A stretch of 45,393 nucleotides of DNA from a virus, in the IMG/VR virus record IMGVR_UViG_3300044824_000033, positions 1 to 45,393 of that record, one strand, 5' to 3'. Below are positions 16,399-44,923 of the stretch, in pieces (within the stretch, counting starts at the first letter, position 1; every line of letters begins with the position of its first letter). The translations under genes were made by a program, and so were the position numbers. The notes below the pieces were generated by a model. It was not told the DNA's origin. It made no database searches and saw only the letters and a program-made list of their open reading frames with translations.

Positions 16399-16911
16399 GT
16401 GAGCCTTTCCCTAAGCATCTACGACGGCCTGCAACTTCGACTCGGAACGCCAGACGATGTGCACGAGGTGATGGCGCTTGCGATAGCCGCCGCGCAGGAA
16501 AATGGATTGGTGAATGCGAGCCAGGAACTGCTGCTGCGCACGGTGTGGCCGTGTTTGAATCGGCATAGCGGATTGGTTGGGTGCATCGGTAAGCGCGGTG
16601 GCGGCGAGATTGAGGGAATGGTGGTGCTGAATATTGGCACGTTGTTCTACTCACCGGAAATGTGTCTAGAAGAAAAAGTTTGTTTCGTGAGGCCGGAATA
16701 CCGAAGCGCAAAAGGTGGCCGGGCAAACAAATTGTGCGAGTTCAGTAAGTCTGTGGCAGACGCCCTAAATCTAAAATTAATCATGGGAGTGTTCAGTTCT
16801 TTGCAAACTCGCGCAAAAATTTCTTTGTACACGCGCGCGTTCGGAGAACCAGCCGGGGTATATTTCTTATACGGCGGAAAAACAGGCGATGCCAAGAGTA
16901 TCTCTGCATGA
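16399..16911 (+). CDS. GNAT-like acetyltransferase
   Basis: A 170-residue protein. The pattern fits a GCN5-type fold: LQLRLGTPDDVHEVMALAIAA at the start, a middle EGMVVLNIGTLFYSP strand, then VFCVRPEYRSAKGGRANKLCEFSKSVAD-like, where VRPEYRSAKGGRA is a variant acetyl-CoA loop (Q/RxxGxA), and a late LYTRAFGEPAGVYFLYGG. Many related phages carry such a gene in this position. The target is unknown. GTG start 1 nt after the Nudix gene; the stop overlaps the homing endonuclease ATG. Confidence 0.6.
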   Translation: MSLSLSIYDGLQLRLGTPDDVHEVMALAIAAAQENGLVNASQELLLRTVWPCLNRHSGLVGCIGKRGGGEIEGMVVLNIGTLFYSPEMCLEEKVCFVRPEYRSAKGGRANKLCEFSKSVADALNLKLIMGVFSSLQTRAKISLYTRAFGEPAGVYFLYGGKTGDAKSISA

Positions 16912-18125
16912 ATGAGGGGCAGGATACTCTTGGGCCGCACACGCCGCATAAGACCGGCATCCCTGTTGCGCGGTTTTACGTGTACGAACATTGGCGACCG
17001 GATACCGATCAACCATTTTACGTTGGTAAGGGAACCGCTGGGCGCGCCTACAAAATGGGAGATAAGGGCAATCGCAATTTGCACCATCGAGCCATAGAGA
17101 AAAAACTGCACAACCTTGGGTTGGCTATTGAAGTAAAAATTATCGCCGCGGGGTTAACAGATGATGACTCCTATGATCTAGAAATGGACTTAATTTCATT
17201 CTGGAGGTTTGCTGGAGCCAAACTCGTCAATAGAACAGATGGTGGCGACGGCGTCCGTAACCCTCCTCAAGAAACCAGAGAGAAGATGCGGCAGCTAAGA
17301 TTGGGAACCAAAGCGTCTGAAGAAACTCGCGCCAAGATGAGAGCCGCGCAGAGCGTGCGAGCGCCACAGACTCCTGAGCAAATTTTAAAAGCTACTCGTA
17401 ACAGACAGGCAAAGAGGAAGCCAACGACTGAAGAAACCCGTATTAAAATGAGCATCGCAGCTCAGAAAAGATTTGCCAAAATATTGTCCGATCCGGATTC
17501 GGCTGCAACCCTTCGCGCGATGCGTTCAAAAAGCTCTAAAGAAATGTGGGCACGTATGAAGGCCGAGGATCCTAACAGATTTTCCGCCCTTCAGGTCTCA
17601 AGGGTGGAAGCTTGTCTGCGGTCATGGACTCCAGAACGGAGGGTTAAACACGCTGAGGCGATGAGACATCTCGCTCGTCCAAGAAAATCGCCGCGCGCCC
17701 CATTTGTTGGCCCAAGAAAGCGCAATACAATGAAAAAAGATGGGCCGCATGGAAATAAAGGCAAGAAGATGCCACTCCACGTTAGAGAATTGCTCGCAGC
17801 GCACGCTGGGGCTATGAAAGGGAAGACACTTCCGCCAGAGACCATTGATCGGATGAGGAAATCATGGACACCGGAGAGACGTGCAAAACAAGCACTTGTT
17901 GGCGCTCGGTCAATGGCAAAGCGCGTTCGTCGCAAAATGACGCCAGCGGAAGCAGAGGCCAATAGACTTGTAAACGTTGGCAGAAAACAATCTCCGGAAA
18001 CGTGCGCAAAGATGAAGGCCGGCTGGACGCCGGAGCGGCGTGCTGCGATGGCCGCATGTACAGCTCGTCGAAACACCGAAAATGCCGCAAAGAGCAACAA
18101 ACTATTGTACGGGAGTGCCGTATAG
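16908..18125 (+). CDS. GIY-YIG homing endonuclease with NUMOD3 repeats
   Basis: A 405-residue protein. Residues about 21-110 form a GIY-YIG nuclease: FYVYEHW replaces the first motif and QPFYVGKGTAGRAY carries the second, followed by a conserved-looking Glu in EMDLISFWRF and N in LVNRTDGGDG. The rest has at least five NUMOD3-type DNA-binding repeats (SEETRAKM, TEETRIKM, PPETIDRM, SPETCAKM, with SWTPERRAK between), rich in Lys/Arg. It likely propagates itself by cutting cognate sites. It is wedged between GNAT and the next virion gene with ATGA and TAGTG overlaps on both sides. The DNA is more AT-rich than its neighbours, consistent with recent arrival. Confidence 0.85.
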   Translation: MNEGQDTLGPHTPHKTGIPVARFYVYEHWRPDTDQPFYVGKGTAGRAYKMGDKGNRNLHHRAIEKKLHNLGLAIEVKIIAAGLTDDDSYDLEMDLISFWRFAGAKLVNRTDGGDGVRNPPQETREKMRQLRLGTKASEETRAKMRAAQSVRAPQTPEQILKATRNRQAKRKPTTEETRIKMSIAAQKRFAKILSDPDSAATLRAMRSKSSKEMWARMKAEDPNRFSALQVSRVEACLRSWTPERRVKHAEAMRHLARPRKSPRAPFVGPRKRNTMKKDGPHGNKGKKMPLHVRELLAAHAGAMKGKTLPPETIDRMRKSWTPERRAKQALVGARSMAKRVRRKMTPAEAEANRLVNVGRKQSPETCAKMKAGWTPERRAAMAACTARRNTENAAKSNKLLYGSAV

Positions 18126-32054: not shown

Positions 32055-33001
32055 GCGGTTACTCTGGTCTTGGCGGTGTCGGACGCCAACTTCAGCGCCG
32101 CCTTCTGCTCGGTCGAAATCTGACGCCACATGCCATTTCGGATGGTCTCCAGTTTATCGAAACTGGCCTTATCCGGCGCGAGCGAGTAACTGGTGATCAG
32201 GCTATCGACCTCCTGGGAGGTGACGGGTTTGGTGCCGGCGGCCCACCTTGCTAGCGCTTCACCGATATCCTCATCGAGCGGCTTCGGTTTGTCGAAAATC
32301 GCCGCAAACTGCTGCGGTAGTTTGATAATCGCGCGCTCGCCCATTTCCTCCGGATGCCACGAAGGTATGCCGCCGCTGTTCGGATACATCAGGCAATTGA
32401 GCGTCATCTCATAAATCATCTCGTCCCCAGCGATTGGCATGAAGCCGAGCGCTTTTGGCTGCTGGCCGGGAATGATCTTCATCTTATCCTTGGCGCGGAA
32501 ACACCAGATCGTGTTCACCTGCATCTGCAGCACTGTGTTCAAGAACTTGCGCAGTTCCTGCTTCGGCTTCTGCCACGCTGACATCTGCACCCGGTCGCGC
32601 GACGCCGGCTGGCCATTCTTGCTCCACAACTGCATCAGCCGCTCACATTCCGCCTCGTGCATCTCAAGGGTGCCACCAGGGCCTTCGTGCATGTGGCTAG
32701 CGGAATCGATGATGACCGTACGCGCGCCTTTGCTCACGCAGTATTGAACAGCGGCCAGATATGACAACGCATCGAATGGGGCGCCGAATGGAACATGCCG
32801 GAAGTCGTGGAAATCCGCGTAGTGCAGCGCGCGATTAGCCTCGGTGTCGATGCAGAATACCGGACCAGGCATCACGCGCTGAATGCCGGCAGCCAATCGA
32901 AGCGCGCCGCGAGTCTTGCCGCCGCCGCTGGGGGCTACTAGACCTATTAGGAGCGGAACCGCACGGCGAACTGCAGGGCTGTCTTCAAAAGCGCGCGTCA
33001 T
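32051..33001 (-). CDS. RecA-like ATPase, Sak4/AAA_24 type
   Basis: A 316-residue protein. ATG at 33001 overlaps the homing endonuclease stop (ATGA); an ATG 12 bp upstream is an alternative. Walker A is GLVAPSGGGKT (20-30, Lys29), followed by CIDTEANRALHYAD; Walker B is RTVIIDSAS (94-102). WCFRAKDKMKI holds a likely sensor strand. The family fits phage single-strand-annealing-associated ATPases such as Sak4. With the exonuclease downstream in the same operon it forms a probable phage recombination pair. The C-terminal 60 residues are helical (DKLETIRNGMWRQISTEQKA). Confidence 0.7.
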   Translation of the reverse strand: MTRAFEDSPAVRRAVPLLIGLVAPSGGGKTRGALRLAAGIQRVMPGPVFCIDTEANRALHYADFHDFRHVPFGAPFDALSYLAAVQYCVSKGARTVIIDSASHMHEGPGGTLEMHEAECERLMQLWSKNGQPASRDRVQMSAWQKPKQELRKFLNTVLQMQVNTIWCFRAKDKMKIIPGQQPKALGFMPIAGDEMIYEMTLNCLMYPNSGGIPSWHPEEMGERAIIKLPQQFAAIFDKPKPLDEDIGEALARWAAGTKPVTSQEVDSLITSYSLAPDKASFDKLETIRNGMWRQISTEQKAALKLASDTAKTRVTA

Positions 33002-33720
33002 ATGTGTTTCCACGATTTGCGGTGCACTATTCTCCCAATCAAGGCTTTGTCTACGCCATATTCTAGCGCAAGCGGAGATTGCGGATGGCCGTCTGCGACC
33101 AAGGATCGAATGCGGATAACGTCGGCTTCCGTAAGTTTTGCGCGAGGGTTTGAAGCGCCCCTACGGGTAGCGCGCGGCGGCCGAACTATTTCCAGACTCT
33201 GACCTTCATATTCGGAGACTGGAAAATTCGTTTTGGCAAATTCGCCAAAATGTTTGATGGCTGCACGGTCATAGGCGCGCGCGGCCTCTATTTCATCGCG
33301 GTAGCGTCCAATGTACATTTGCTTACCAGAGCCGTTTTTTAGCTCACCGGCAACGATGACCACCAGATATTTTCCAGATTTATCTATTGACACGCCGTGG
33401 TAGGGACTGGTTTTAGTGCCGCGCGCTGTATGTCTGGCGTTTTGTGCATTTTGTCGGCGTGTTGCTTCGCGCAAATTTCCACGACGGTTGTTCAGACCAT
33501 CACCATCACGGTGATCCACCTCAAATTCCGGAGATGCGCCAATGACGAACCTGTGCATTGGCACGCTGATCTTCTTCCCGCCCTTCTTCACCGTTCTTGC
33601 GGCATACCATAAATCCGTGCGCCGATGCTTGTACGCGTACCACTTGAACGCCGAGACGCGCTCATAATCCTCGTCATCGACGATTGCGATTTTGCCGCGC
33701 GATAGCTGAATCTCACGCAC
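32998..33720 (-). CDS. HNH-AP2 homing endonuclease
   Basis: A 240-residue protein. The GTG at 33720 is chosen for its GGAGG and small overlap. HNH nuclease: MHRFVIG (His56) and EVDHRDGDGLNNRRGNLREA (Asp69-His70, Asn82). An AP2-type DNA-binding domain follows at about 105-168 (YHGVSIDKSGKYLV, YIGRYRDEIEAARAYDRAA, FGEFAKTNFP). The C-terminal 193-240 looks like a helix-turn-helix (KLTEADVIRIRSLVADG, YGVDKALIGRI). It likely homes into the gap between its two neighbours, with overlapping codons at both ends. Confidence 0.85.
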   Translation of the reverse strand: MREIQLSRGKIAIVDDEDYERVSAFKWYAYKHRRTDLWYAARTVKKGGKKISVPMHRFVIGASPEFEVDHRDGDGLNNRRGNLREATRRQNAQNARHTARGTKTSPYHGVSIDKSGKYLVVIVAGELKNGSGKQMYIGRYRDEIEAARAYDRAAIKHFGEFAKTNFPVSEYEGQSLEIVRPPRATRRGASNPRAKLTEADVIRIRSLVADGHPQSPLALEYGVDKALIGRIVHRKSWKHI

Positions 33721-33940
33721 CGGCAACCTCCTTCGCCTCGAAATATCGTGCAGTCGGCCCGCACCGCGTCGATTCATCGCTGCGACGAATAGACTGACAA
33801 TATACCAGCGTGTCCATGATGAGCATCTTGCCGGTGACCGGGCTCATTCCCTGACTGCGCAGACACTTCCCATACGTATCAGTATCAGTATCCATGGCAA
33901 GAGACGCACTATAATGTTTGCAATCGATACACAATTTCAT
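33713..33940 (-). CDS. Small Cys-rich phage protein
   Basis: A 75-residue protein. The ATG at 33940 overlaps the exonuclease stop (ATGA). It has CIDCKHY at the N-terminus, GKCLRSQ, VYCQSIR and CGPTARYFE at the end. This is a common phage type with five or six spaced cysteines and a terminal ARYFE/ARFFE motif, probably a zinc-binding fold. The function is unknown. Confidence 0.6.
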   Translation of the reverse strand: MKLCIDCKHYSASLAMDTDTDTYGKCLRSQGMSPVTGKMLIMDTLVYCQSIRRSDESTRCGPTARYFEAKEVAGA

Positions 33941-38091: not shown

Positions 38092-38171
38092 CCGAACCCA
38101 AAGCCCGCGCGTCCGGAGTGACCTATCGTTACGCTGGATCACTCTTTGAGGGCGCGCGGGCCGAGGCTGAA

Positions 38172-38732
38172 ATGACAATGGAATCGAACCCTAACCAGTG
38201 GCCCGGCAAAACAGGACCTAAGCCGGTTGAGTTGCCAGCCAAGAATTGTTTGACATGCGGAAAGGCGTTCACACGAGGGCGCCGACCGAATGGCAAGATC
38301 CAGCAGGCGAGCATTTGGAAGCAGCGAAAATACTGCAGCCGCCCCTGCTATCAGAAGGTAAATCACGCTCGTCCCGATCTGGGTTCTTTCGAGGATAGGA
38401 TGAGGGCTCGTTGTGTCAAGGATGAGCAATCGGGCTGCCTGATTTGGAATGGGCGCGTCGCCAATAGTGGGTATCCGCGCTTCGAGCATCACGGAACGAT
38501 TGAATCTGGGCACCGAGCAATGTTCGCCGCGGTGAATGGTGCGATTCCTGCCGGATTGTTTGTCCTGCACCGTTGCGACAATAGACGCTGCATTGAGCCG
38601 TCGCACCTATTCTTGGGCACTCATGCTGAAAACATGGCTGAAAAGTGGCGTTATGGGCGAACCGAAACTGGAAGATTCGCGATGGCCACAGTTGAGCGGC
38701 ATTCTGTCGACGGCAACGGGAGCCCGATATGA
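38172..38732 (+). CDS. HNH endonuclease with N-terminal zinc site
   Basis: A 186-residue protein. The ATG at 38172 has a GAGG before it; a GTG at 38118 is a longer option. Zinc pair CLTCGKAF (Cys26/29) with KYCSRPCYQ (Cys55/59). The C-terminal HNH: GHRAMFAAVNGAI (His114), LHRCDNRRCIEPSHLFLG (His133, Cys135, Cys140, His145) and HAENM (Asn154). It probably acts as a free-standing homing nuclease in the early operon. The stop overlaps a small ORF (ATGA). Confidence 0.8.
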   Translation: MTMESNPNQWPGKTGPKPVELPAKNCLTCGKAFTRGRRPNGKIQQASIWKQRKYCSRPCYQKVNHARPDLGSFEDRMRARCVKDEQSGCLIWNGRVANSGYPRFEHHGTIESGHRAMFAAVNGAIPAGLFVLHRCDNRRCIEPSHLFLGTHAENMAEKWRYGRTETGRFAMATVERHSVDGNGSPI

Positions 38733-38857
38733 GCCGCATGGGCACCCATCGCTGGAACGCAAAGCGTGATTTGAGCGAGCCGCGAGAATTTCCGCCGCCA
38801 TATAGGCAATTCCGGTCCAGTTTCGAGGTGCCCAAACTTGCCAGCACTAAGTGCTGA
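38729..38857 (+). CDS. Possible 42-residue protein
   Basis: ATG overlaps the HNH stop (ATGA). The product is basic and Pro-rich (MSRMGTHRWNAKRDLSEPRE, then FPPPYRQFRSSFEVPKLAS). Support comes from coupling and spacing only. Confidence 0.4.
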   Translation: MSRMGTHRWNAKRDLSEPREFPPPYRQFRSSFEVPKLASTKC

Positions 38858-38875
38858 CTCTAGCCATCAACGCGA

Positions 38876-39091
38876 ATGAGCACACCTGAAAAACGCGTTC
38901 TGATGGGCAATAACCGGATAAGCATGGCACCGATCCGCACATGCAGACTGTGCGAATGCTGCCGTTCAGAGACGCCAAAGGTCAGTCCACGCGGCTGCTG
39001 TGCGGCCTGTGAGGGCGACTTCGTAAGGTTGCGGCCGCTATGGCGTCACGCAATGGTGCGGATCACCAACGCGTTTCTGCCGGTCAGTTAG
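38876..39091 (+). CDS. Small Cys-rich protein
   Basis: A 71-residue protein with CRLCECCRSE and GCCAACEGDF, likely one zinc-binding unit, followed by a basic end. Its stop overlaps the stop of the leftward membrane gene (TTAG shared by both strands). The function is unknown. Confidence 0.5.
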   Translation: MSTPEKRVLMGNNRISMAPIRTCRLCECCRSETPKVSPRGCCAACEGDFVRLRPLWRHAMVRITNAFLPVS

Positions 39092-39362: not shown

Positions 39363-39746
39363 TTGAGTGAGTCGCATCTTGTCGCGAAGATTTTGCTCGA
39401 GGCGTCTCGTGGGCCCGATACTCGGTTGTTTCGTCTCAATGCCGGCCGCGTCTGGGCCGGCGTCATCGTCAAGCGGACGGCGCAACTTCTCACCTTGGCG
39501 CATTATTATCCGATCAAGCTCGCGCCCGAAGGATTCTCAGACACTGCCGGCTGGACCTCCATCACAATCACTCCTGAGATGGTCGGCCAAAGGGTCGCCC
39601 TGTTCATCGGTTGCGAAGTCAAGGTTCTGCCGAACAAACCCACACCCGCGCAGCTATCCTTCATTGATGCGGTTGTCAAGGCGGGCGGACGGGCGGGCGT
39701 TGCGTACTCAACAGATGAGGCAAAGCGAATAATTGCGGGATTGTGA
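39363..39746 (+). CDS. VRR-NUC nuclease
   Basis: A 127-residue protein with a probable TTG start. VRR-NUC pattern: GPDTRLFRLNAG, then GFSDTAGW (catalytic Asp), GCEVKVLPNKPTPAQLSFI (Glu-x-Lys and the conserved Gln) and KAGGRAGVAYSTDEAKRII. These small virus-type nucleases often accompany helicase and primase genes and may resolve branched DNA. The stop overlaps a GTG (GTGA). Confidence 0.8.
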   Translation: MSESHLVAKILLEASRGPDTRLFRLNAGRVWAGVIVKRTAQLLTLAHYYPIKLAPEGFSDTAGWTSITITPEMVGQRVALFIGCEVKVLPNKPTPAQLSFIDAVVKAGGRAGVAYSTDEAKRIIAGL

Positions 39747-40018
39747 CGTGTAGGTGTTGCGCCTACATGAAACTTGGCGTTATTGTCGGGGCGCGGCTAG
39801 GGGAAAGTAAGCTCTTCCCCGAAATTCCAAACCCTCAATCTCCCTGTGCATGCCGCATTTTTACCTACACAGGGTGCCAGGGAGCCTCAATTGCCACACA
39901 CGTACTGCCCACCATCACCGCATCAGCCGGTGATCAAGAATCGCCGCCAATTCAGGGCGTGGTTGATTTTCCAACTCATTCAGTCCGGTGCGGAACTTCC
40001 CGCCGACCCCAGTTATAA
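39743..40018 (+). CDS. Possible Cys-rich small protein, frame A
   Basis: GTG at 39743 overlaps the VRR-NUC stop. The first 50 codons look coding (TCRCCAYMKLGVIVGARLG, with CACRIFTYTGCQG later, possible zinc). The last 30 residues do not, and they overlap another good frame at 39846-40076. Either two genes overlap or one gene is split by a frameshift. Confidence 0.35.
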   Translation: MTCRCCAYMKLGVIVGARLGESKLFPEIPNPQSPCACRIFTYTGCQGASIATHVLPTITASAGDQESPPIQGVVDFPTHSVRCGTSRRPQL

Positions 40019-43182: not shown

Positions 43183-43211
43183 GATCTACCCCAAGTAAAC
43201 GGCAAAGCGCC

Positions 43212-43251
43212 GCACTATCGGGGGCACTCGCGAGAATGCCCCCTGTAGTGC
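43212..43251 (-). ncRNA. Intercistronic hairpin H1
   Basis: Outer stem GCACTA (43212-43217) with TAGTGC (43246-43251), a conserved TC/TG internal loop, inner stem GGGGGCA (43220-43226) with TGCCCCC (43237-43243), and a 10-nt loop that is itself palindromic (CTCGCGAG). No U-tract follows on the leftward transcript, so it is not a plain terminator. Same architecture as H2 and H3. Confidence 0.65.
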
Positions 43252-43254
43252 GTG

Positions 43255-43770
43255 CTAGAACACGCGCACCTGGTGCGACAGACGCACCGATGTACCGTAA
43301 GCATGCTCGATGCAGGTATCGACATACTCAGGCACTGGCGGAATATCCTGCGACTCTTCTACGGCGAAATGATCCGCTTGCGTCATGTAGTCGATTTGCC
43401 CAGTAAAAATAGGCTTTGTGACTGCCTTAACCCGGTGATACGTGGTCTGTTCCACCACATTGCGCGGCGGTTTTTCGCTGTACGCGTGGACAACTGGCAG
43501 ACCCTTCGACTGTGCCCAGCGCAGGTAATCGGCCTGAATGTCAGCGACTGTGCGCTGGCAGTTCGGGTGCGGGCGCGTGTACTTTGGCTTGAGCGGCCTA
43601 TCAGACTTCGCCACGCGCCATGAGCGCTCCCCAGACGCACGGCCGATGTCCGCCAGCCCGCGGCCCGCTTTGCTGTCGATAGGTTCGCAGCAACTGGCGG
43701 GAGCGTAGGCGCGTTTGCGAGCATCCCAGAATTGCAACTGAACGGTTGCGGCACTACGTAGATATGTCAT
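43255..43770 (-). CDS. Hypothetical early protein
   Basis: A 171-residue basic protein with VQLQFWDARKRAYAPASCCE, a Pro/Lys-rich middle (KPKYTRPHPNCQRTVADIQA) and an acidic end (FAVEESQDIPPVPEYVDTC). AAGGG precedes the ATG. The gene is followed by H1 and preceded by H2. No family was recognised. Confidence 0.5.
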   Translation of the reverse strand: MTYLRSAATVQLQFWDARKRAYAPASCCEPIDSKAGRGLADIGRASGERSWRVAKSDRPLKPKYTRPHPNCQRTVADIQADYLRWAQSKGLPVVHAYSEKPPRNVVEQTTYHRVKAVTKPIFTGQIDYMTQADHFAVEESQDIPPVPEYVDTCIEHAYGTSVRLSHQVRVF

Positions 43771-43803
43771 GGTCCCTTACCCCTATGATCTGCGCCGGAA
43801 TTG

Positions 43804-43846
43804 GCACATTGTCGGGCGCACCGTTTGCCGATGCGCCCTGCAATGC
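43804..43846 (-). ncRNA. Intercistronic hairpin H2
   Basis: Outer stem CATTG (43807-43811) with CAATG (43841-43845), TC/TG internal loop, inner stem GGGCGCA (43814-43820) with TGCGCCC (43832-43838), and an 11-nt loop. The stem sequence differs from H1 and H3 but pairing is kept. It lies immediately after the stop of the gene at 43848. Confidence 0.65.
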
Positions 43847-43847
43847 G

Positions 43848-44039
43848 TCACTCCGTAGTAAATTCGTACTTGGTACCGGCGCGTACCTGCGCTGACGTTC
43901 GATTGTTGTTATAGCTGGCGCACATTTCGCGCGCTTGCTGGATGGTCAAGCCGCGCCGTTTCGTTGTCTTACGCGCTGTCGCGAACGATTCGAAACTGGT
44001 AGCGGAACGGCTGAACACTTTGTACGTGACATCGGCCAT
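43848..44039 (-). CDS. Small basic protein
   Basis: A 63-residue protein from the ATG at 44039, with GGAG upstream. It contains VTYKVFSRSATSFESFATAR, then TIQQAREMCASYNNNR and VRAGTKYEFTTE, a compact alpha/beta pattern resembling many phage microproteins with a Q-A-R helix. The function is unknown. Confidence 0.5.
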   Translation of the reverse strand: MADVTYKVFSRSATSFESFATARKTTKRRGLTIQQAREMCASYNNNRTSAQVRAGTKYEFTTE

Positions 44040-44041
44040 GG

Positions 44042-44119
44042 CTATTCTCCAAAGTAGGCATCCGTGCTCATGGCACGGATGCCGTTGATTGAGAGCATTT
44101 CGCAGTGATCGCATTTCAT
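44042..44119 (-). CDS. 25-residue microprotein with CxxC
   Basis: ATG at 44119 overlaps the upstream stop (ATGA); the TAG is 2 nt before the next ATG. Product: MKCDHCEMLSINGIRAMSTD, then AYFGE. It contains a perfect 11-bp hairpin in its coding sequence. It could be a real zinc-type peptide or a translated leader. Confidence 0.4.
   Translation of the reverse strand: MKCDHCEMLSINGIRAMSTDAYFGE
44057..44083 (-). ncRNA. Perfect 11-bp hairpin in the 44042-44119 leader
   Basis: GGCATCCGTGC (44057-44067) pairs with GCACGGATGCC (44073-44083) around a 5-nt loop. It is 18 nt upstream of the ATG at 44039 and lies inside a 25-codon ORF, so translation of that ORF would open it. Confidence 0.55.
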
Positions 44120-44301
44120 GATTGCACCTCCGGGGTCGCGCGGTACGCTACGGTTTCGTTTAGCTCTGTCATCACGCGGCGATTCCAAGCGCAGTCCAGC
44201 CATACCTTGCCGTTATCCGGCGGAAAGCTGGTTATGATGTAGGCGCGACGCGTGGCGTTAGCCCGCGCTTGCGCGTAGGCGATTCTGTCTGGGTTCATCA
44301 T
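44116..44301 (-). CDS. Small hypothetical protein
   Basis: A 61-residue protein, ATG at 44301 overlapping the upstream stop. It has PDRIAYAQARANATRRAYI, then DNGKVWLDCAWNRRVMTEL. The upstream extension of the frame is not used. The function is unknown. Confidence 0.5.
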   Translation of the reverse strand: MMNPDRIAYAQARANATRRAYIITSFPPDNGKVWLDCAWNRRVMTELNETVAYRATPEVQS

Positions 44302-44597
44302 GGCGCATCTTCCGCATGGCTGACAAACATCACGGTGCAGATACCGTAGGGCCGAAATTCCGTATCGCCCCCAATGTCGGACGTGACGCCACGCTTGCCG
44401 GTCAGTCCCATGGCCGCCTTGGCCTTGCGCATTAACTCGCGCTGGAATGTACGATTCGCTTTGCCGTAGCTGCCATCCGTGCCCCCGGTATAACCGTAAT
44501 GCGTCAGTTCCGGCATGGTGACAGTCGCACGGCGTACCCAACAATAGTTCGCTTCGCCGCCAAACGTGTCCGTGTACTCAACGTTAAATGTGTTCAT
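44298..44597 (-). CDS. Hypothetical early protein
   Basis: A 99-residue protein with ATG at 44597. It contains TFGGEANYCWVRRATVTMPE, a Tyr/Gly-rich HYGYTGGTDGSYGKANR and FRPYGICTVMFVSHAE. Strand-rich; the repeated aromatic residues suggest a folded small domain. The function is unknown. Confidence 0.5.
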   Translation of the reverse strand: MNTFNVEYTDTFGGEANYCWVRRATVTMPELTHYGYTGGTDGSYGKANRTFQRELMRKAKAAMGLTGKRGVTSDIGGDTEFRPYGICTVMFVSHAEDAP

Positions 44598-44636
44598 GGT
44601 GTATCCAGTCCTTTAGTCTGTGATTCTGCGAGGTTT

Positions 44637-44682
44637 CGCATTGTCGGACACTTGCCAGCGTGCGCAAGTGTCCTGCGATGCG
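44637..44682 (-). ncRNA. Intercistronic hairpin H3
   Basis: Outer stem CGCATTG (44637-44643) with CGATGCG (44676-44682; one G-U-type pair), TC/TG internal loop, inner stem GGACACTTG (44646-44654) with CAAGTGTCC (44665-44673), and a 10-nt loop. It directly follows the stop of the gene at 44684. Inner stem 9 bp against 7 bp in H1 and H2. Confidence 0.65.
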
Positions 44683-44683
44683 T

Positions 44684-44923
44684 TTAATATTCGCGCGTGA
44701 AGGCCAGCGCCGTCCCGTTGTGTTTGAAGCTGAAACGCATATCACGGCACCGTATCGACTGGCCGCGCGACATGCGGACATCGGTAGGAATTGGGCGCCC
44801 AGTGTCGTGCATGTATCGGCCGAATGAATGCGCGTACCAGCACGCACTAGACCACAAGTGTGGATTCTCGGCGCCGTCATATCCGGCGCGCGCGTAGTCG
44901 GTAAGGTTGTCCGGCTTACTCAT
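44684..44923 (-). CDS. Hypothetical early protein
   Basis: A 79-residue protein, ATG overlapping the upstream stop. It contains DYARAGYDGAENPHLWSSAC, then RMSRGQSIRCRDMRFSFKHN. The start context GGTGCAATCATG is shared with the gene start at 44119. The function is unknown. Confidence 0.5.
   Translation of the reverse strand: MSKPDNLTDYARAGYDGAENPHLWSSACWYAHSFGRYMHDTGRPIPTDVRMSRGQSIRCRDMRFSFKHNGTALAFTREY

Follow-up and report, generated by a model that had tools for sequence, protein, structure and literature searches.

A large and apparently uncatalogued family of hairpins, which fold on the sense strand, follow stop codons, and lie at junctions between shuffled genes, is spread across unrelated phages. 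One of its members, H1, is found in the window (the whole stretch of 45,393 nt analyzed here, which is one complete IMG/VR record with the major capsid protein at its start), together with H2, a likely member, and H3, which belongs to the family by architecture, position, and company. The most likely reading, which we hold tentatively, is that these hairpins are widespread cis-acting RNA elements placed at the 3′-end of individual cistrons in polycistronic phage mRNAs, where they serve mRNA 3′-end processing or stability.

H1 (43211..43252), H2 (43805..43847), and H3 (44637..44682) are all on the minus strand and exist where the earlier note had placed them. The outer stem, fixed internal loop, and inner stem that it described are indeed shared, but they had been read from the plus strand, whereas the operon is on the minus strand; thus, the internal loop given as 'TC/TG' is fixed but is 5′-CA/5′-GA in the mRNA. 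In the mRNA sense, the common plan consists of a 5-bp outer stem (CAYYR/YARTG), a 5′-CA/5′-GA 2x2 internal loop, an inner stem, and a loop of 4-8 nt. H1 folds as CGCACTA CA GGGGGCATTC TCGC GAGTGCCCCC GA TAGTGCG, with a 7-bp outer stem, a 10-bp inner stem, and a 4-nt loop; H2 as CGCATTG CA GGGCGCATCG GCAAA CGGTGCGCCC GA CAATGTG; and H3 as CGCATCG CA GGACACTTGC GCACGCTG GCAAGTGTCC GA CAATGCG. Rather than the 7-9 bp inner stems and 10-11 nt loops first reported, the folds contain an inner stem of exactly 10 bp, free in sequence, and loops of 4, 5, and 8 nt, respectively. Their minimum free energies are -31.6, -30.5, and -25.8 kcal/mol (z = -7.8, -6.4, and -4.7). On both strands of the 45 kb, an explicit descriptor of the structure matches H1-H3 only, compared with a mean of 0.03 matches in 60 dinucleotide shuffles of the whole window.

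Each hairpin directly follows a stop codon, as had been claimed. The H1 core starts 4 nt beyond the TAG stop (43255..43257, minus strand) of a 171-aa ORF, the H2 core 2 nt beyond a TGA stop (43848..43850, minus strand), and the H3 core 3 nt beyond the TAA stop (44684..44686, minus strand) of a 79-aa ORF (44684-44923). The 171-aa gene, which lies between H2 and H1 (43255..43770, minus strand), has no PHROG match and no relatives in IMG/VR, while the 99-aa gene 3′ of H3 (44298..44597, minus strand) matches phrog_22729 (E = 3e-41); both genes are of unknown function. All four operon spacers longer than 70 nt contain a hairpin, as stated previously, but the fourth is no family member: this perfect 11-bp hairpin with the loop CATGA (44057-44083, minus strand) lacks the CA/GA internal loop, matches neither of the covariance models R2 and R3, and possibly lies within a 25-codon ORF (MKCDHCEMLSINGIRAMSTDAYFGE). 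Elsewhere in the window, ORFs at 829-1674, 16908-18125, 32998-33777, and 38118-38732 resemble homing or HNH/GIY-YIG endonucleases by eye, one of them directly 3′ of the capsid gene.

The training set of model R3 comprised 28 copies, all enterobacterial and none from the window. The model recovers H1 at 42 bits (E = 1.2e-10), which places H1 in the family on independent evidence, and also recovers HK97, P22, and the soil phage copy L018. In an unfiltered run over 9.4 kb, R3 recovers H2 (22 bits, E = 5e-5) and scores only 10.4 bits on H3, the most divergent copy, which is supported by its fold and the explicit descriptor. The family as modeled by R2 and R3 has a 5-bp outer stem, the CA/GA 2x2 loop, an inner stem of approximately 10 bp, and an orientation in sense to the upstream gene, and the window hairpins conform to this plan.

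Covariation of the stems, proposed from H1-H3, was borne out over an alignment of 44 copies. In this alignment, 98.5% of pair cells are paired (75% in shuffles), 12 of the 15 pairs show two-sided change, and the covariation value of 0.645 compares with 0.07-0.13 in control registers slid by 1-3 columns. The internal loop is invariant, with C and A on the left side and G and A on the right, and a U-G pair occurs near the loop in 30 of the 44 sequences. Counted on the sense strand over ten stem pairs in 74 distinct enterobacterial copies, there are 607 Watson-Crick, 115 G-U, and 4 A-C pairs. The excess of G-U over A-C indicates that the sense strand is the one that folds and is under selection. 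These data favor RNA as the folding molecule, with single-stranded DNA of the same sense being a possible alternative.

The family is far broader than the window. Further copies, for which a search had been proposed, number in the hundreds in unrelated phages, but none that is convincing was found in approximately 46 long contigs whose capsid is at least 79% identical to that of the window; thus, the capsid lineage is no guide to where the element occurs. Relatives of the window phage are recorded in IMG/VR and a spring metagenome. Loci carrying relatives of the 99-aa gene also contained no hairpin copies. Gapped pattern scans of IMG/VR brought up genuine family members in other soil phages (L018/L034/L058, L057, and L033) and in further records (L247, L260, and L251/L261), nearly all of which begin 0-4 nt 3′ of a stop codon. 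A re-search with the copy-bearing records led to enterobacterial prophages, where the hairpin CATTACA-GCAGGCATTC-nnn-GAGTGCCTGC-GATAATG follows an Rz-like gene. BLAST with an enterobacterial copy matched 40 phage records and, in E. coli, 485 places distributed over 432 of the 5,426 genomes; many of these matches are limited to the hairpin alone within unannotated gaps. An additional pattern scan of IMG/VR gave at least 120 matches. Low-scoring matches such as L052 and L154 were judged to be chance, as were pattern-scan matches in genome contigs, which fell mostly within coding frames.

Model searches located copies in HK97 (38661 and 38856), HK022 (39679 and 39874), P22 (40309), and phi80 (44298), in Fels-1, ST64B, mEp390, ZF40, cdtI, and phi458, and in a Klebsiella, an Edwardsiella, and an Actinobacillus phage. 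No model match was found in lambda, N15, or Mu, in T7 (searched with R3 only), or in the DLP12 region of E. coli K-12 (R2 and R3). One to three matches each were present in 35 of 149 genomes of the family of Tatumella (Enterobacterales). None were found in 294 genomes of the family of Undibacterium, 391 of the order of Halomonas, 289 of alphaproteobacteria, and 249 of Bacillota, and since only 16-26 candidates were scored per genome, these four sets provide weak evidence of absence.

Several copies depart from the simple arrangement. L251 carries the same family hairpin twice, at a spacing of about 500 bp (301-338 and 803-840) and with near-identical 3′ flanks, as does L261; after the first hairpin of L251 comes a terminator-like hairpin with a T-run. 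The 3′ flanks of L247, L251, and L260 are able to fold into an additional hairpin, in competition for the outer 3′ strand; such a downstream hairpin, noted by eye in several soil phage copies, was rejected as a general feature, as the flanks are not generally conserved. In HK97 (38661-38896) and HK022 (39679-39914), a pair of hairpins approximately 195 nt apart with little annotated between them forms a small candidate cassette. The copy in Salmonella phage FSL SP-016 (L292, 36827-36869) has a right arm that mirrors the left (TTACAGCAGG...CCTGCTGTAA) and no longer has the CA/GA mismatch, as though it had been formed by joining two halves in opposite orientation. A group of IMG/VR phages (L249/L250/L253/L256-L259/L270) carries a less regular hairpin, CACTACA-GGGYGTCATTAC-GATGGYGCCC-GATAGTG, between a methyltransferase-like gene upstream and a ParB-like gene downstream, and in some of these phages a regular copy is also present, 3′ of an Rz-like gene.

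Of 95 copies with unique flank combinations, 66 are preceded by a stop codon that ends 0-4 nt before the hairpin, compared with 23% at control positions. Of 19 annotated records, 13 have the copy 0-10 nt 3′ of a co-directional CDS, 15 show a lysis gene no more than 1.5 kb upstream of it, and several encode the small subunit of terminase one to three genes farther downstream. In annotated enterobacterial phages, copies are found mostly downstream of lysis genes and, in several cases, just before terminase. Approximately 30% of copies lie elsewhere than directly at a stop codon; the nearest annotated stop is over 100 nt away from the P22 copy and from the second of the two in HK97. Some copies are located 3′ of an intrinsic terminator (TTTTT just upstream of the hairpin in 5 of 69) and would be transcribed only upon read-through. 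Flanking information is near zero except for GG at -2 and -1 before the hairpin.

The genes on either side of the element are shuffled, so that the hairpin marks mosaic junctions: 11 upstream-flank clusters each occur with two or more downstream clusters, and 9 downstream clusters with two or more upstream ones. Runs of identity between copies stop at either edge of the hairpin or within it, which fits recombination by homology or selection to keep the element and not a fixed crossover.

With the hairpin structure well supported, the following mechanism is what we infer. The occurrence of the same internal loop across phages of unrelated types points to a host-conserved protein, which would recognize the invariant CA/GA loop plus a stem of fixed length; the hairpin is thus probably bound by such a factor. 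Once bound, it would define or protect the mRNA 3′-end through processing or stability, and every accessory cistron would act as an independent unit. Because the element would work whatever its neighbors, recombination between phages could exchange genes there, making it a site of gene exchange. A processing or stability element, or a protein-binding site, was what the earlier note had proposed, and both remain consistent with the data; that interpretation is partly supported overall, though the breadth of the family, the invariant CA/GA on the mRNA strand, and the siting at mosaic gene junctions went beyond what it anticipated. Against 3′-end processing or stability, the invariant internal loop would be superfluous for simple 3′-end protection, and the copies away from a stop codon, some of them 3′ of an intrinsic terminator, also count against it. 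A bolder version, in which one element and a factor common to proteobacterial hosts form a phage-wide plug-in boundary, so that a late operon could take up any accessory gene as a separate expression unit and phages of unrelated types could exchange genes through the element, is possible but clearly less probable.

The shuffling of genes on both sides also suggests that the element could act as DNA, as a hairpin-forming recombination or cassette-boundary site resembling integron attC, for the gain and exchange of accessory genes. The series of elements with intervening genes in the window, L251/L261, HK97, and HK022 agrees with this, as does the combination of a conserved outer box, a mismatched spacer, and a variable inner part. 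However, the attC core (GTTRRRY) is absent from the ends, the crossover points vary, no common recombinase was found, and the U-G pairs conserved on one strand favor RNA, leaving a DNA site unlikely.

More doubtful is a role in transcription, in which the RNA would modify RNA polymerase or block Rho after the translation stop, in the manner of put-like antitermination, to permit read-through of the late operon. Its location at the start of untranslated RNA, mainly in long late operons and sometimes adjoining intrinsic terminators, and a spread that suggests a host target would suit this role, but the element is a single hairpin with several copies per operon, and HK022 has only two model copies, near the right genome end. 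An effect on translation, through termination, read-through, or re-initiation at the next cistron, is somewhat less probable again. In most copies, the core begins 0-4 nt after the stop, so the inner stem would lie near the leading edge of the terminating ribosome; yet all three stop codons are represented, many copies are farther from a stop or 3′ of a terminator, and the next annotated gene in phi80 is on the opposite strand. A selenocysteine-type reading, which would place the hairpin after UGA, was discarded, since TAG and TAA stops also precede the hairpins. That these are ordinary intrinsic terminators or unrelated hairpins alike by chance, as the abundance of stable GC-rich hairpins 3′ of stop codons might suggest, is very improbable and already contradicted by the covariation, by recovery with an independent model, by the 3 descriptor matches in place of 0.03 expected, and by the lack of a U-tract directly after the stem, both in H1-H3, as noted earlier, and in the family (at least 6 T within the first 10 nt downstream in only 4 of 59 downstream clusters).

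Rfam 15 contains no family above its curated cut-off at any copy searched, and in the annotated stretches of HK97, P22, phi80, and others, no feature marks the hairpin; in P22, the annotation places the start of a small ORF (orf25) inside it. A full-text literature search found no description, although the older HK97/HK022 and P22 genome papers lay outside that search and may mention it in passing. A conserved regulatory or boundary element may therefore have been overlooked in the standard phages HK97, HK022, P22, and phi80, which allow immediate tests of its role in laboratory strains. The element may account for the harmless fit of accessory (moron) genes in late operons and for the siting of lambdoid mosaic joints between genes, and the model offers annotators a marker of cassette boundaries.

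Among known systems, the R sites of T7 are RNase III processing hairpins with an internal loop between the genes of a polycistronic mRNA. The present family likewise consists of internal-loop hairpins between phage genes, but in these the CA/GA loop never varies, the stem is fixed at 10 bp, and the duplex is shorter, and T7 itself gave no R3 match. The put RNAs of HK022 are cis-acting structured phage RNAs with compensatory pairs, as are the hairpins described here; however, put comprises two adjacent stem-loops in early operons near early promoters, whereas the family is a single hairpin of accessory and late regions, and its HK022 copies, at 39679 and 39874 only, are not paired stem-loops near early promoters. 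Integron attC sites share the gene-proximal imperfect hairpin, the conserved outer part, mismatches, variable inner part, and position at an exchangeable-gene boundary. In contrast, the family has no GTTRRRY/RYYYAAC core, fixed crossover, or linked integrase; its 44-copy alignment ends in CAYYR/YARTG-type boxes, and the sense strand folds with U-G pairs.

REP elements (palindromic units) of enterobacteria are also short mismatched hairpins 3′ of stop codons, but number in the hundreds per genome, compared with one to three matches for the family, and have a GTAG/GTGG-type foot instead of CATTA/TAATG. Moreover, the annotated copies of the family that were examined sit among phage genes, and their inner stem is free in sequence. 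Lambdoid boundary sequences and the PeSL cassettes of T4-type phages are conserved short sequences at module junctions; the family occupies similar junctions but conserves structure with covarying arms, shows no promoter, and occurs in phages of unrelated types. Lastly, the anti-sRNAs of EHEC prophages are Hfq-bound RNAs of 51-60 nt, downstream of PR′ and encoded 3′ of moron genes in lambdoid prophages (PMC4104026). Although the hairpins lack poly-U and are mostly downstream of lysis genes, they resemble these anti-sRNAs as short RNAs 3′ of genes in lambdoid prophages.
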